DNA from: a bacterium
GTDB taxonomy: Bacteria > JALSQH01
Reading direction: 5' to 3'
Assembly: GCA_026985515.1 (NCBI GenBank)
Contig: JALSQH010000239.1
Coordinates: forward strand, 1-6,903
Length of the DNA stretch: 6,903 nucleotides
Numbering within the stretch: the first letter of the stretch is position 1; each line of letters starts with the position of its first letter. Shown here in pieces: positions 3 to 6,903 of the stretch. Made by a program: the position numbers and the translations under genes. The notes below the pieces were generated by a model. That model ran no database searches. It was given only the letters and a program-made list of their open reading frames with translations, and was not told the DNA's origin.

Positions 3-794
3 GAGAGAATAAAAAAGGGAAAAGAACCAGCAGGGAAAATTATTGTATCTGCCCGGCAGGAGAGCAACTTTATAATTATAGACATTGAAGATGATGGAAG
101 AGGAATTGATGTTGAATCAGTTTATCAAACAGCTATTGAAAAGGGACTTATTGAAAGGGGGAAACGGCCGCCTGACAGAGAGATAATAAATCTTATTTTT
201 GCACCCGGTTTCAGTACCAGGAAAGTTGCAACAACTACTTCTGGCAGGGGTGTGGGGCTTGAGGTGGTGGCGGAAGTTATTTCATCTCTTGGAGGTTCAA
301 TAGAAGTTAACACGGCTCCAGATGTGGGAACCACTTTTACAATAAAGATTCCTTTGACACTTGCCATCATAACTGCACTGATGGTGCAGGTGCATGATGA
401 ATTGTACGCTATACCAACATCCGCTGTACTTGAATCAATAAAAATCAGGAAAAGTGATATCAGGATTGTGAGAGGGAAAACTGTTTTTCTCCTGAGAGGA
501 AGTGTTATTCCTCTGGTTTTCCTGAGTGAAATCGTTGATCTTCCTCTTTCAGCAAATGACGAAATATATGTGGTGATTGTGGGGAAAAATGATCAGAAAC
601 TGGGATTGGGGGTTGAAAGACTTGTGGGACAGCAGGAAATTGTGATTAAGTCTCTTGATGAAACAATAGATTCTCCAATCATAGCTGGAGCTACCATTCT
701 GGGTAATGGAAGGGTGGTTCTTATTCTGGATATAACTGCTATTCTTTCTGAAACTGAAGATACAAGGAGCTCAAATGTATACAGAATTCTATAA
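3..794 (+). CDS. cheA: CheA chemotaxis histidine kinase, C-terminal part (5' end outside window)
   Basis: Partial gene: the open frame is already running at base 3 and gives 263 residues before TAA at 792-794. CheA autophosphorylates under receptor control and passes phosphate to response regulators; it acts at the cytoplasmic face of receptor arrays. Visible are the end of the P4 ATP-binding domain and the whole P5 regulatory domain. The P4 part starts just after the expected N-box, with ERIKKGK (residues 1-7), then the G1 box DDGRGID (30-36), an F-box FAPGFSTR (66-73), the G2 box GRGVGLEVV (81-89) and GTTF (109-112) before the last P4 strand. Residues from about 116 to 255 form the CheW-like P5 domain that binds CheW and receptors. 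All ATP-binding boxes in view are intact, so the kinase looks active. The Hpt and dimerisation domains lie upstream of the window. Its last 20 bases overlap the next gene. Confidence 0.96.
   Translation, partial: ERIKKGKEPAGKIIVSARQESNFIIIDIEDDGRGIDVESVYQTAIEKGLIERGKRPPDREIINLIFAPGFSTRKVATTTSGRGVGLEVVAEVISSLGGSIEVNTAPDVGTTFTIKIPLTLAIITALMVQVHDELYAIPTSAVLESIKIRKSDIRIVRGKTVFLLRGSVIPLVFLSEIVDLPLSANDEIYVVIVGKNDQKLGLGVERLVGQQEIVIKSLDETIDSPIIAGATILGNGRVVLILDITAILSETEDTRSSNVYRIL
764..769 (+). promoter_or_regulatory. Ribosome binding site for the AAA+ ATPase gene, inside the cheA end
   Basis: AAGGAG lies 5 bases before the ATG at 775 and within the last codons of cheA. It supports 775 as the true start even though this overlaps cheA by 20 bases. 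Confidence 0.7.
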
Positions 795-1581
795 ATTGAA
801 GATGCCCGCATTCAGAAAAACTCCTGATCCTGAATTTTTCTTCTGGACCGAACAGTATGAGGAGGCATATACTAGATTGCAATACGCGGTTGAGGAAAAG
901 GAGCTTGCTCTTCTGACTGGCGAAATTGGCACAGGTAAAACTCTTCTTGTAAGAACTTTAATGGACAGGTTAAATGAGGATGAATATGACATTGCCCTTA
1001 TTCTTAATCCTCAACTCTCCCCTACCCAGTTTGTGAAAGCGGTGGCAAGGGAATTTAAAGTCGATTCTCCAGCATATTTTAAATCTGATCTCTATATTCA
1101 GATTCAGGAGTTTTTATTTGAAAAATATGAGGAAGATGTGAATCCCATACTGATAATAGATGAAGCACAGCTTATACCTTCAAAGAAAGTTTTTGACGAA
1201 ATAAGAGTGTTGTCCAATTTCCAGATGGATGATGAAAATCTTATAGGGATAATAATGGTTGGTCAGCCTGAAATTGTGAGGAGACTAAAACACAGGGCGT
1301 ACAAACCTTTTACGCAGCGTATAGGAGTTGAATACCATCTTTCACCCCTCTCTGAAAAAGAGGTGAAAAGCTATATAAAATTTCGGCTTGAGAAAGCAGG
1401 AGCAAAATGGGAAATTTTCACCGATAAGGCTATAGAAAAAATTTACGAATTATCGGGTGGTATACCCCGTGTGATTAATCACATTGCCACACAGGCTCTT
1501 CTGGAGGGTGCAGCAAGGGAGAAAAAAGTCATTGATGAAACTATCATAGAAGAGGTTTCGAAAAGTATGAGGTTTCTCTGA
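775..1581 (+). CDS. ExeA/GspA-type AAA+ ATPase in a chemosensory operon
   Basis: A 268-residue P-loop ATPase of the ExeA/GspA/MshM branch of AAA+ proteins. The N-terminus has the family signature: an aromatic start (MYTEFYKL), a DPEFFFW segment at 18-24, then Walker A GEIGTGKT (49-56). Walker B is ILIIDEAQ (125-132), with the DEAQ form usual in this family. Sensor 1 is around MVGQPEI (161-167), a probable arginine finger is R182 in QRI, and the sensor 2 region is SGGIPRVIN (227-235). All ATPase elements are intact. Classical ExeA carries a transmembrane helix and a peptidoglycan-binding domain after the ATPase; this protein ends right after the AAA+ lid and has no visible membrane segment, so it should be cytoplasmic. 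The start is backed by AAGGAG 5 bases upstream. It overlaps cheA by 20 bases and the cheW-like gene by one base (TGATG), implying coupled translation. Its job here is unknown; ATP-driven assembly or positioning of the array is an inference. TniB/IstB-type transposition ATPases are a less likely reading. Confidence 0.9.
   Translation: MYTEFYKLKMPAFRKTPDPEFFFWTEQYEEAYTRLQYAVEEKELALLTGEIGTGKTLLVRTLMDRLNEDEYDIALILNPQLSPTQFVKAVAREFKVDSPAYFKSDLYIQIQEFLFEKYEEDVNPILIIDEAQLIPSKKVFDEIRVLSNFQMDDENLIGIIMVGQPEIVRRLKHRAYKPFTQRIGVEYHLSPLSEKEVKSYIKFRLEKAGAKWEIFTDKAIEKIYELSGGIPRVINHIATQALLEGAAREKKVIDETIIEEVSKSMRFL
1569..1572 (+). promoter_or_regulatory. Ribosome binding site for the CheW-like gene
   Basis: GAGG sits 8 bases before the ATG at 1581, inside the last codons of the ATPase gene. 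With the TGATG stop/start overlap it supports this start, and therefore inclusion of the long charged N-terminal tail in the protein. Confidence 0.55.
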
Positions 1582-2300
1582 TGGGCAGATTTTCAGAGTT
1601 AAGGAGAAAGGCTAAAAAGAAAAAAACAGAGATTGAAGAAAAAGAAGAAAAAAAAGAAAAGGGCGAACAGGAAACTTCTAAAAAAGAGGTTAAATCACCC
1701 CCAACAGAAATAAAAACATCCGGTAAAATTGAACTTCCCCCTTCCGGTCTCGCAGAAGATATTCTGCAGCTGGTGGAATCAGGAGAACCTGTAACTGTAC
1801 CTGAAGAACCTCCCGAGATACTGGAAGAACCAATTCATTTTGAAGAAGCTCTCATTCAGATGGTGGTCTTTTCCATAGGAGAGGAGGTTTATGGAATTGA
1901 TATCTACAATGTCAGGGAAATCATCAATCCCGTTGAAATTATTCGGGTACCAAGGAGCAGTAAGAGCTTGATAGGCGTTATAAATTTAAGAGGGAATGTA
2001 ATTCCCGTCTTTGATTTTCGAATCATGTTTAACATCCCTTCAGATGAAAAGACAACTTACGAAAAATTTATTGTGGTTGAAGTTACCGAACACCTTGTTG
2101 CATTCATGGTTGACAGAATATTTTCTGTTTCCAAAGTTCCCATTGAAGAGATTGAACCTGCTCCTCCCCAGCTGAGACTTGGCATTGATAGTGAATTTAT
2201 TTCTGGTCTTGCTAAAATAGATGGTAAAGTCGTAGCAATTATTGAGGTTGATAAGTTAGTTAAATCAATAAAAACAAAAGGGGGCAAAACCTATGAATAA
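1581..2300 (+). CDS. cheW: CheW-family coupling protein with long charged N-terminal extension
   Basis: A 239-residue protein in two parts. Residues 1 to about 88 are low in complexity and probably disordered: a Lys/Glu-rich stretch (1-38), then a Pro/Glu-rich linker (39-86) containing a small hydrophobic patch, [11 protein letters not shown] (58-68), that could be a short binding helix. Residues from about 90 to 230 are a complete CheW domain, with the signature strand-turn [14 protein letters not shown] (134-147), including NLRG, and a second half ending in [11 protein letters not shown] (217-227). CheW links MCPs to the CheA P5 domain. Ordinary CheW proteins are about 150-170 residues, so the tail is extra. 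The gene overlaps the ATPase gene by one base and the MCP gene by 8. Its position directly after the AAA+ gene suggests, but does not prove, that the tail contacts that ATPase. The domain call is firm; whether it is a canonical CheW or a specialised adaptor is open. Confidence 0.92.
2279..2284 (+). promoter_or_regulatory. Ribosome binding site for the MCP gene
   Basis: AGGGGG ends 8 bases before the ATG at 2293, inside the 3' end of the CheW-like gene. It supports the 8-base overlap start, which also places the first transmembrane helix correctly near the N-terminus. Confidence 0.65.
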
Positions 2301-4278
2301 GCTAAAATTGAACTCAATAAAATTTAAGGTTGTCCTTTATGGTACTTTATCACTGATAGTAGTAGGGATAATTTTAGGTTACACCTCTGCCAGGAGGGCG
2401 AGGAACATTTTGAAAGAAGAATTGATAGAAAGAGGTGCCTCACTTGCGAGAAACATCGCTTACAGTTCAAGATATGGAATTGTTCTTGAAGATCCAGTCA
2501 TTCTTGGAAATGTGATAAAGGGGGTTTCGTCTGAGAGAGATCTTGCATATGTTTTGATCCTGAATAAAGATAAGAAACCCCTGGCCAAGTTTTTTAAAGA
2601 CCCTACCCTTGAAAAACCTGTGCTGGATTCTCTGAAGAACATAAAAAAGGTCTCTGGACTTGTTCACAGGACAATTACGATAAATGGGAAAGATTATCTT
2701 GATTTTCAAATGCCTGTTTATGGCGAAAGCAGTGAGCAGGTAGACGAGGTTCTCGGTGATCTTCTTGCAAACAAACAGCAACCCCAGGGGGAGAAACAAT
2801 CAAAAAAATGGGGAATTTTGAAACTTGGGTTTTCCCTTGCCACTCTTGAAAGGAAAACGTCCAATATAACTCTGAGCTCGTTTTTGATCAGTTTATTAAT
2901 CACTTTTATTCTCATAGGCATTCTTTACTATGTTATAAGAAGAACTCTGAAACCAATTGATAATATTGTGGGTATTGCTCAGAAAATGTCAGAAGGTGAT
3001 CTTACTCAGCATATAGAGATAGAGTCTGATGATGAAATAGGTACGATAGGAAGAGTATTCAATGTCATTGCAGAAAATCTCAATGAAATGCTGATGGAGG
3101 TGAAAAGCGCAAGTGAAAAGGTAACCAATGAATCAGAGAGAATCCTTATAAGCGCCCAGGAAGTTTTGAAGGGATCTCAGATTCAGGCTGAGTCGGCAGA
3201 GGAAACTTCATCTTCCATGGAGGAGATAGCAGCTCAGATAATGACTGTTGCGGCAAATACTGAAAGATTATCAGCAAATGTCTCAAATACTTCTTCCGCA
3301 ATCGAAGAAATGGGAGCAAGCATAGAGCAGGTTTCAAAAAACGCTCTGGAATTATCGAGCTCAGTTGACCAGGTTTCATCCTCTGTTGAGGAAATGATTG
3401 CATCTATTGTTGAAGTCGCAGCAAATGTGGAACAGGCAGATAAACTGGGTCAGGAAACTGCGAGGGAAGCAGAAAACAGCGGTGATGCAATCCTGAAAAC
3501 TCTTGAAGGTATGAAAAAGGTTTCCGAGGCAATGGATGATACAGCCAGGATGATTCAGGCCCTCGGTGAAAGATCTTCAGAGATTGGAAAAATTCTGGAG
3601 GTTATTGAGGAGATTGCAGATCAGACCAACCTTCTTGCTCTGAATGCAGCAATTGAGGCTGCAAGAGCTGGTGAAGCAGGAAGAGGTTTTGCTGTGGTGG
3701 CTGATGAAATAAGAAAACTTGCTGAAAGGTCGGTTCAGGCAACTAAGGAGATTGGAGAAGTCATAAGAGAAGTTCAAAAGGAAACAAATCTTGCAGTTAA
3801 TGCAGCAGAAGCTGGACGGCAGGAAACACATGAAAGTATCAAAATGTCTGACACAGCCATAGAAGCTATTAAAAGAATTCAGGAGATGGTCAGAAAGACT
3901 TCAGAAATAATGAGAGAAATAGCAATTGCCACATCAAACCAGAAGAAAGCCACTGAATATGTCAGCAAAGCCATTGAGAGAATGAATGAATTGACAAGAC
4001 AGGTTAAACAGGCCACCGAAGAACAGGCCAAGAGCAGTTCTCAGATCATAAAGGCTGTGGAGGAGATGAAGAGACAGACAGAGGAGGTTGCCATAGCTAC
4101 CCAGGAGGAAAAAAGAGGAGCTGAGATGGTACTCAATGCCATTGAAAACATCAGCAGTATTGCACAGGAGAATCTGAAGGCAATGGAAGGAATGCTGAAC
4201 ATTGCAAAGGATCTTTCTCAGCAGGCTGAAAATCTTATGGGATTGATACAGAAATTTAAGCTGGAAGAAAATGAGTGA
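2293..4278 (+). CDS. Transmembrane methyl-accepting chemotaxis protein (chemoreceptor)
   Basis: A complete 661-residue MCP. Domains in order: short basic N-terminus; transmembrane helix 1 (about 12-30); periplasmic sensor region (about 31-192), which resembles Cache/CHASE8-like domains (weak call) and has a Gln/Lys-rich insert near 160-172; transmembrane helix 2 (about 194-215); HAMP (about 216-268, with LKPI and SDDEIG landmarks); then a very long coiled-coil hairpin. The conserved signalling tip runs about 436-480, with [29 protein letters not shown] and RKLAERS. Each arm is about 193 residues, longer than in E. coli Tsr-type receptors, owing to three 28-residue repeats per arm (listed separately). 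Methylation-site-like SSxxEExx(A/S) patterns occur at E310/E311, E338/E339 and E366/E367. The protein ends in KLEENE, so it lacks the NWETF-type pentapeptide that tethers CheR in enteric receptors. It is followed by an 8-base overlap with the HEAT gene. Ligand unknown. Confidence 0.96.
3178..3429 (+). repeat. Three 28-residue tandem protein repeats in the N-terminal arm of the MCP
   Basis: MCP residues 296-323, 324-351 and 352-379 align without gaps. The core in each unit is a small Ser/Ala pair, two residues, EE, then a hydrophobic residue: [11 protein letters not shown] (306-316), [11 protein letters not shown] (334-344) and [11 protein letters not shown] (362-372). Spacing is exactly 28 residues, or four heptads, so coiled-coil phase is kept. 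The units have diverged at the DNA level, so the duplication is old. Confidence 0.8.
3919..4170 (+). repeat. Three 28-residue tandem protein repeats in the C-terminal arm of the MCP
   Basis: MCP residues 543-570, 571-598 and 599-626 align without gaps: [22 protein letters not shown] and [11 protein letters not shown] open the units, and [16 protein letters not shown] and VLNAIENI follow at the same offset. Taking the hairpin tip as about residue 461, this block lies opposite the N-arm repeat block, so the two arms appear to have been lengthened in step. Confidence 0.75.
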
Positions 4279-6529
4279 TCTGGTAACAGAGTTTAAGAAG
4301 CTGAATCTAAATGGGAAACTTGAGAAGATAAAAAATCTTGAGCTCGAGGAACTTGAGTCAAACCTGGAGGAAATACTGGACATTCTTCCCCAGGAACACT
4401 GGCTTGTTAGAAGCAAACTCATAGACAAGTTATCACATTTGCCTGAGACAAAAATTATCCCCCTTCTCATATCCTACCTCAAGCCGGGAAGTGAACTTTC
4501 AAATATAAGAAACGCAGCAATGGAGGTACTTGTAAAATTTGGTAAAAAAGCGGTCCCTTATCTTGTTGAACTGCTCAATAATCCAAATCCAGATATCAGG
4601 CTTTATGGAGTGGTTACACTCGGAGAAATTGCGGATCCCTCATCTGTGGACCATCTGAAAAAACTGGCTTATGACACAGATGAAAATGTGGCACAGGCTG
4701 CCATAGAAGCACTGGGCAAAGTTAATTCTCCCGATGTGGTGCCTTTTCTCATCTCTCTGCTCAACGAGGATTTCTGGCTTCAGTACCCAGCAGTTATGGT
4801 TCTTGGAAAACTAAAAGATCCGACAGCAATCGAACCTTTAAAGAGGTTATTGAGTGACGAGATGCTGAAGTTTGCAGTGATAGAAGCTCTTGGAAATATT
4901 GGTGGAAGTGAGGCAATACAGGTTCTTGTAGAAACTCTGGAAAAAGAAAAGGATGTTGTATCAATTCAGGAGCTTCTCAAGGCATTGATTAAAATCATCG
5001 AGAATGATGGTCTCTCAGAAGTGGAGCTTGAGAATTTTCTACCTGAAGAAAAAATTGTATCACTCGGAGCAAGAAAAGAGCTACATGAAGCTGTGGACGC
5101 CCTTTTGAATAGCAGTGACCCTGATGAGAAAAATGCTGGAATAAAGCTATGCGGATTTTTCAGATTAACTTCGTGTATTGAGAAACTTCTTCTTTTTCTC
5201 GAAAATGATTTTTTCCAGGAATCCTCCTATCAGGCTTTAAAAAAGTATCCACATTCCATTATTGAAGATATTAAAGGAATAATGGGTCACCCAAACAAGT
5301 TTGTGAGAAGATATGTGGTGAAATTGATGACTGAAAAGGGGTCACCCATTGAAGATGTTGTCGTTTTCATGACCGATCCCGAAAGCATTGTGAGATCTGA
5401 ACTGGCAAATCAGCTTCTCCTTTATGGAAAAGAGGCGGTACCATATCTGTTTGAAATGTTGCATGACCCTGATGAATCTGTCAGAAATACAGCTTTTGTT
5501 CAGTTACTCTCATTTGAAACTGAGGATATTAAATCTTACCTGATTAAAATTGTCAGGGACAGAATGTTTTACCAGGATACTCTCCCCTATTTTATCAATC
5601 TTTCTTCTGAATTTCATATCCACGAACTCCTTGAAGATTTTAAAGAAATTTTTAATTCCTCTGAAAGCAGAAGTTTGAAAATTGATTTGCTGAAAGCCAT
5701 AATTGAAATCGACAGAGAAAAGGGGTTAAAGTATCTTTCTGATCTCACCAGGAATCTAACAAAAGATGAATTGATAAAACTATTTTCCTCTCTTTCTGGG
5801 AAGGTAAGCGATGAATATCTCCCTCTGCTGAGTTCTCTTTTAGAATCTGATGATGAAGAAATAAAGTTCAATACATATCTCGTGATTGCATCGATAAAGA
5901 GTAAAAAAGCTCTTTCAATTTTAATAGATGCTCTGTCAGAAGAGAACCTTCAGTTGAAGGTGTTTATAGCTTCTCTCATTTCAGATTTTAACGAAAAAAT
6001 TGCAGAAGTTCACAGGGAAAGGCTATTTTCAATAATAAATTCTCTTTTGAAGACGGACAACTATGATCTCCAGAGAGAAATAATTAAAATCCTTGAAAAA
6101 TTTTACAGTGAAAAAAGCACCCTCGAAATAGTAAAGAAATTTTTAAGATCTCCTCACTGGAGTGTGAGGCTGCAGAGTTTAATTTTTTTGAAGAAGCTGG
6201 ATGAAGAGGATCTGATTTCTCATGATATTATTGAGGCACTTTCTGAACTCGTTAGAAAAGAAAGTGATCCCCTTGTCTTTGAGATGTTGATGGAAATTCT
6301 TAAGGAAAAAAATATAAGAGGTTCACTGGATGTTGTCATCTCTATATTTCCCGAACTTCCAGATCCCCTTAAAGAGACAGCTTCAAAGTACCTTGCCGAT
6401 CTGAGGGCAGACAACCCCGATTATGTTATGAAAATTGCAAGGAGTCTACCCTTTGCTTACCGTAAAATAATTGAAGAGAAATTTGGAGAAGAAACAAATA
6501 TGGATGGTGCGGAAAAATGGATGGATTAA
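4271..6529 (+). CDS. HEAT-repeat alpha-solenoid protein between MCP and cheR
   Basis: A 752-residue soluble protein with no signal peptide, membrane helix or catalytic motif that I can see. After a charged helical leader (1-40), HEAT-type helix pairs with a period near 31 residues are clear from about 44 to 225. Examples are [22 protein letters not shown] (79-102), [18 protein letters not shown] (106-123), [13 protein letters not shown] (139-151), and [22 protein letters not shown] (202-223). The middle (about 230-360) is more degenerate. Good units return at 369-415 ([25 protein letters not shown]) and 513-680 (including [15 protein letters not shown], 629-643). Such solenoids serve as protein-binding scaffolds; some were annotated as PBS-lyase HEAT-like, but a bilin lyase role has no support here. 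The start overlaps the MCP stop by 8 bases, with only a weak GGAAG 3 bases upstream, which suggests translational coupling. The 3' end overlaps the likely cheR start. A role in organising receptor, kinase or CheR is inferred from context only. Confidence 0.88.
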
Positions 6530-6903
6530 AACCCCTGCAAATTGAAATGAATGATATTGAATTCAGGCTGATAAGGGACCTCATCCATGAAAAGTCTGGA
6601 ATCTTTTTGAACGATTCTAAAAAGGATGTGCTGCAATCGAGGTTATTATCAAGGCTTGTAGCTTTAAATCTCAAGAGTTTTGAAGAGTATTACCTTTATT
6701 TAAAATTCAGTCCTGGGAGGGAGCGGGAATTTAAAAAGATGATAAGCCTGATTACCAATAACGAAACATATTTTTTCAGGGAAAAATATCAACTTGAAGA
6801 TCTGGTTGAAATTATTTTGCCGGAGCTTGCAGCAGAAAAAGAGGGGAAACCCATTAAAATTCTCAGTGCAGGTTGCAGTTCAGGTGAAGAGCCATATTCC
6901 ATC
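6517..6903 (+). CDS. cheR: CheR MCP-glutamate methyltransferase, N-terminal part (3' end outside window)
   Basis: Partial gene, 129 residues in view, open to the window edge. CheR transfers methyl groups from S-adenosylmethionine to receptor glutamates for adaptation. Residues about 5-75 form the helical CheR N-terminal domain (EFRLIRDLIHEKSGIFL, 15-31; then QSRLLSRL, 40-47). The family motif TNNETYFFRE is at 80-89, and the SAM-binding motif I, ILSAGCSSGEEPYSI, at 115-129 is cut by the edge. The key residues seen are intact. The ATG at 6517 is preferred because it adds LKPLQIE ahead of the domain, as CheR proteins usually have about 10-15 residues there, and overlaps the HEAT gene by 13 bases like the other junctions. 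An in-frame ATG at 6547 is the alternative; neither has a strong ribosome binding site. The function suits the MCP two genes upstream. Confidence 0.94.
   Translation, partial: MDGLKPLQIEMNDIEFRLIRDLIHEKSGIFLNDSKKDVLQSRLLSRLVALNLKSFEEYYLYLKFSPGREREFKKMISLITNNETYFFREKYQLEDLVEIILPELAAEKEGKPIKILSAGCSSGEEPYSI

Follow-up and report, generated by a model that had tools for sequence, protein, structure and literature searches.

The window analysed here is one whole contig (C239) of 6,903 nucleotides, part of a 2.4 Mb draft genome whose phylum is represented by two genomes in the collection. It carries a partial, operon-like run of chemosensory genes on the forward strand, encoding the C-terminal part of CheA, an AAA ATPase, CheW, a methyl-accepting chemotaxis protein (MCP), a HEAT-repeat protein and CheR. 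The features are as follows.

3..794, + strand: CheA, C-terminal part (HATPase and CheW-like domains, Pfam), truncated at the contig end
775..1581, + strand: AAA ATPase (Pfam AAA_22), 56% identical to its counterpart in the genome's second chemosensory cluster
1581..2300, + strand: CheW (Pfam)
2293..4278, + strand: MCP of 661 aa, with membrane anchor and sensor, HAMP, and a hairpin of 28+28 heptads (56H) (open reading frame, Pfam, length against Tsr)
2932..3087, + strand: HAMP domain, residues 214-265 (Pfam PF00672, E 1.9e-13), with anchor Glu248 (DEIG)
3178..3261, + strand: N-arm unit 1 (296-323), membrane-proximal, conserved cap unit, 17.8/28 identity to N unit 1 of 72H receptors
3262..3345, + strand: N-arm unit 2 (324-351), from shuffle tests and unit comparison
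3304..3309, + strand: candidate methylation pair E338/E339 in unit 2 (strict motif scan)
3346..3429, + strand: N-arm unit 3 (352-379), from shuffle tests and unit comparison
3388..3393, + strand: candidate methylation pair E366/E367 in unit 3, exactly 28 residues further (strict motif scan)
3655..3690, + strand: hairpin tip, residues 455-466, with tip Glu E461 equivalent to Tsr E391
3919..4002, + strand: C-arm unit 1 (543-570), tip-proximal, opposite N unit 3 (shuffle tests)
4003..4086, + strand: C-arm unit 2 (571-598), opposite N unit 2 (shuffle tests)
4087..4170, + strand: C-arm unit 3 (599-626), membrane-proximal, opposite N unit 1, conserved cap, 18/28 identity to C unit 5 of 72H receptors
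4255..4257, + strand: terminal Phe655, 194 residues past the tip Glu (Tsr F515: 124)
4271..6529, + strand: HEAT-repeat protein of 752 aa (Pfam HEAT_2, E 4.3e-61), recurring in the clusters of relatives
6517..6903, + strand: CheR methyltransferase (Pfam CheR_N and CheR), truncated at the contig end

The MCP combines a signalling domain (MCPsignal, residues 386-568; PF00015, E 2e-52) with the conserved tip, which identifies it as a chemoreceptor. A single-sequence structure model of residues 193-661, of moderate confidence (pLDDT 79, pTM 0.55), has long helices on both sides of the tip in an antiparallel helical hairpin, and its matches in the PDB are chemoreceptors. Several neighbours have features of their own. 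The AAA ATPase lies between cheA and cheW, occupies the same place in the second cluster of the genome (L128), and is also found in two Nitrospirota clusters (L151 and L154). The N-terminal extension of CheW includes a low-complexity 9-base repeat, rich in Lys and Glu, at window positions 1614-1660. The HEAT-repeat protein turns up again among the chemosensory genes of Nitrospirota, Dadabacteria and a Myxococcota-assigned bin, and in the second cluster of the same genome; in the stretches fetched it stands beside the window receptor and beside L014/L148, L140, L142 and L144-L147.

Receptor length was measured from the HAMP Glu to the tip Glu and from the tip Glu to the terminal Phe, with Tsr of E. 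coli MG1655 taken as 36H; tips in relatives were located by HMM anchors. Tsr spans 143 residues from Glu248 to Glu391 and 124 from there to Phe515, and the window receptor 213 and 194, so that each arm is longer by exactly 70 residues (10 heptads) and the receptor is 56H by length. The first-pass annotation, counting by hand, had arrived at about 55 heptads and had suggested that this does not fit a receptor class cleanly; the correct count is 56 (28+28, relative to Tsr = 36H), and the suggestion holds by length. The twelve classes listed in MiST 3.0 are 64H, 58H, 52H, 48H, 44H, 42H, 40H, 38H, 36H, 34H, 28H and 24H; 56H is absent from them when length is reckoned against Tsr = 36H, and the listed 58H may use a different boundary. 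Applied to other receptors, the same ruler gave 38H, 40H, 44H, 52H, 60H, 64H, 72H and 80H, with HAMP-to-tip distances in exact steps: 143 (Tsr, 36H), 150, 157, 171, 199, 213, 227, 241, 269 and 297 residues.

Three gapless units of 28 residues had been proposed in each arm (296-379 and 543-626), facing each other across the hairpin. Both proposals are borne out at those coordinates, as the blocks, counted from E461, occupy -165..-82 and +82..+165, mirror-symmetric to the residue. For each arm, repetition was scored by comparing its three units two by two and adding up the BLOSUM values, against shuffles within the block that kept heptad register. The N arm scored 146 (shuffles 100.8 +/- 13.0; 6 of 5000 as good) and the C arm 142 (67.3 +/- 14.9; 0 of 5000), a signal above general heptad background. 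Permutation of whole heptads did as well in 8 of 5000 trials for the N arm and in 0 of 5000 for the C arm, and shuffles across the whole arm with a free start in 0 of 3000 for each. The repeats are nonetheless faint, with identity between units of 9-13/28 in the N arm and 7-10/28 in the C arm, and a search of the MCP gene for a repeat at the DNA level found none; for both reasons the repeats are old.

An initial scan of named genomes returned no close relatives; a second, using an N-arm alignment, returned 26 loci. The 56H length is common to 13 further receptors, which come from at least eight genomes and several phyla; sharers include G049 (Dadabacteria), G349, G241 (Cloacimonetes), G133, G270, L140, L141 and L143. 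Long receptors of other lengths fall on the same scale. The number of units per arm is three in 56H, four in 64H, five in 72H (Nitrospirota) and six in 80H, that is, H = 32 + 8k. Relatives thus differ in steps of precisely four heptads, taken by the two arms together, in keeping with the annotation's idea of a balanced gain of four heptads at a time. The 64H paralogue in the same genome and three other 64H receptors are longer than the window receptor by a net 28 residues per arm, and in the 72H receptors five units can be clearly made out in each arm. In 67 of the 72 receptors between 36H and 80H, the terminal Phe stands at the mirror position, tip + (N arm - 19). It occurs at heptad offsets of -7 to -28 in 0-3 of 73 and never at +7 to +28, so that the two arms match each other in length to the residue. 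Offsets of half a unit (52H, 60H) and of a single heptad (38H) also exist, so 28 residues is not the sole step. The 80H receptors (L065, L067, L136, L137), present in six of the seven genomes of one class, go beyond the published upper end of the class list at 64H. No description of a ladder of paired 28-residue modules was found in the open-licence papers searched.

A tree built on the central 164 columns places six 56H and five Nitrospirota 72H receptors in one clade (support 96/98). Its 56H members are the window receptor, Dadabacteria J088, those of a Myxococcota-assigned bin and a Desulfobacteraceae bin, and those of two unassigned bins; the 72H receptors form a single clade inside or beside them. 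Receptors of the clade adjoin CheA or CheW genes in the stretches fetched. The 56H receptors of G133/G270 and G241 lie elsewhere in the tree, and a single 56H origin was not rejected by test. A separate 64H clade (99/91) contains the 64H paralogue of the window's own genome, which disposes of recent loss from that paralogue as the source of the window receptor. The window receptor is thus not a 64H receptor, being one unit pair shorter and outside that clade; with its 213- and 194-residue arms of three units each, it belongs to the 56H length group. The Nitrospirota 72H receptors (L142, L144-L147) also carry a Cys-rich tail after the C arm (NCWDxxHC...CPAY...RCWLI...WCKG...CMHC), possibly metal binding.

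Comparison of units across classes points to where modules were added. When 56H receptors are set against 72H receptors, the first N units correspond to each other (score 85, against 45-53 for the other units), as do the last C units (92, against 51 or less), while the remaining units match ambiguously. Since the cap units match one to one, the membrane-proximal pair is conserved, and the two extra pairs occupy interior positions of both arms. Gain is clearest not in the window gene but in the Nitrospirota 72H sister group. Likeness is greater between units that hold the same position in different proteins (about 47-50) than among the several units of a single protein (about 35-39), and the array is therefore older than the spread of the family.

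The genome has a second, syntenic cluster, arranged CheA-AAA-CheW-CheW-MCP-(686-aa MCP-like frame)-HEAT-CheR, whose receptor is 64H, one unit pair taller than that of the window; other 64H receptors and one 44H receptor are also encoded. Two MCP-like proteins of the genome (L005, L007) have arms of about 64H length and degenerate tips (ISSHAEEE, IAASSENY), and perhaps bind CheA/CheW abnormally. Each paired heptad contributes about 10.5 A; the listed classes range from 12 to 32 paired heptads, and longer ones exist but are rare (PMC6628036). The expectation that height changes with unit number is supported on this basis, at about 42 A per unit pair (PMC6628036). Stalks would measure about 294 A in 56H and about 336 A in 64H receptors; the heights of the two arrays in the genome would then be about 42 A apart, and the arrays would stay separate.

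The best explanation, to which we assign a probability of about 0.7 for the whole, paired modules and array height included, is that the window encodes a membrane chemoreceptor whose CheA/CheW-binding tip is ordinary and whose four-helix-bundle stalk, unusually long (56H), is modular, has arms matched in length and sets array height. The stalk is made of 28-residue (four-heptad) modules paired across the hairpin, N1 with C3, N2 with C2 and N3 with C1. Changes in its coding sequence would each have added or removed a single paired module, since only balanced change of whole modules would keep the heptad register and the local pattern of small residues and Glu. Module number would set the distance from membrane to baseplate, at about 4.2 nm per pair. 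The 56H and 64H receptors may then form two arrays separated by height, each with its own CheA/CheW, though the other 64H receptors and the 44H receptor of the genome speak against this; some modules might, more weakly, bear methylation sites for the adjacent CheR.

One alternative needs no modules. The 28-residue pattern could simply reflect, at a local scale, conserved coiled-coil motifs (SSxxEExxAS, EQxxGSxQIxxAIExM), with lengths arising from arbitrary indels of heptad pairs of the kind described before. The occurrence of 52H, 60H and 38H agrees with this, and the greater likeness of same-position units across proteins than of units within one is expected if position-specific function dominates. 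We consider it unlikely, however, since in class averages lag 28 exceeds lags 14, 21, 35 and 42 in both arms of 56H, 64H, 72H and 80H receptors, most clearly in the C arm (in 72H, 1.09 against -0.16 to 0.22 at lags 7, 14, 21, 35 and 42), and is not prominent in 44H receptors. The 64H, 72H and 80H receptors, moreover, exceed 56H by integral units per arm, and the interior units of 72H are visibly repeated, with 13-17/28 identity in the N arm of one protein. A recent triplication in the window gene, from a shorter ancestor, would account for three units per arm and their mirror placement, and the wording of the annotation points to a gain of this kind. That reading is very improbable and the gain is not private: the equal length of 13 further receptors, the lack of a DNA repeat and the low identity between units all argue against it, and no relative with two units per arm was seen among those compared. 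What the window holds is a genuine and widespread feature, a known family of receptors appearing in a new length.

A further possibility is that modules mainly multiply methylation sites, giving a longer adaptation ladder with height as a by-product. A strict motif scan that recovers Tsr 297/304/311/493 found just two motifs in the window receptor, the Glu pairs E338/339 and E366/367, with a near match at E310/311; N-arm motifs in 56H and 64H receptors fall at two main phases modulo 28, and the operon includes CheR, all of which would suit such a role. It is nevertheless decidedly unlikely, as strict motifs average 1.6-2 per protein from 56H to 80H whatever the number of units, and many units have none. 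Motif number tracking module number was rejected on the same count.

Taken beyond the window, the modular reading would make long chemoreceptors (56H, 64H, 72H and 80H) a discrete ladder, H = 32 + 8k, of paired modules gained and lost together, whose number acts as an evolvable ruler of array height that separates parallel arrays in one cell; we put this generalization forward tentatively, at somewhat less than even chance. Alignment of the hairpin needs equal lengthening of two separated stretches of one gene, and receptors with 3, 4, 5 and 6 matched pairs make this long-standing puzzle of balanced indels directly testable. They also form a series well suited to asking whether the length of a receptor by itself separates chemosensory arrays.

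That heptads are inserted or deleted in balance is in itself well established, and is embodied in the heptad classes. The window receptor shares with the class signalling domains (24H-64H; scheme of Alexander and Zhulin, MiST 3.0) a hairpin four-helix bundle, an invariant tip and heptad gain or loss balanced between the arms. It differs in that 56H is not among the twelve classes, and its 72H and 80H relatives exceed the list; the scheme is extended by these three lengths. Tsr of E. coli (36H) and TM1143 of Thermotoga (PDB 2CH7), the best matches of solved structure, have the tip and signalling core in common with it, but each arm of Tsr is 70 residues shorter. Receptors of 44H length show no such 28-residue array. 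The 64H receptors, including that of its own genome (L002) and many relatives, have the same 28-residue modules, and the 64H cluster of the genome likewise encodes CheA, AAA, CheW, HEAT and CheR; they are set apart by four units per arm, by a tip that is mostly IAAQAGEH rather than EAARAGE, and by their separate clade.
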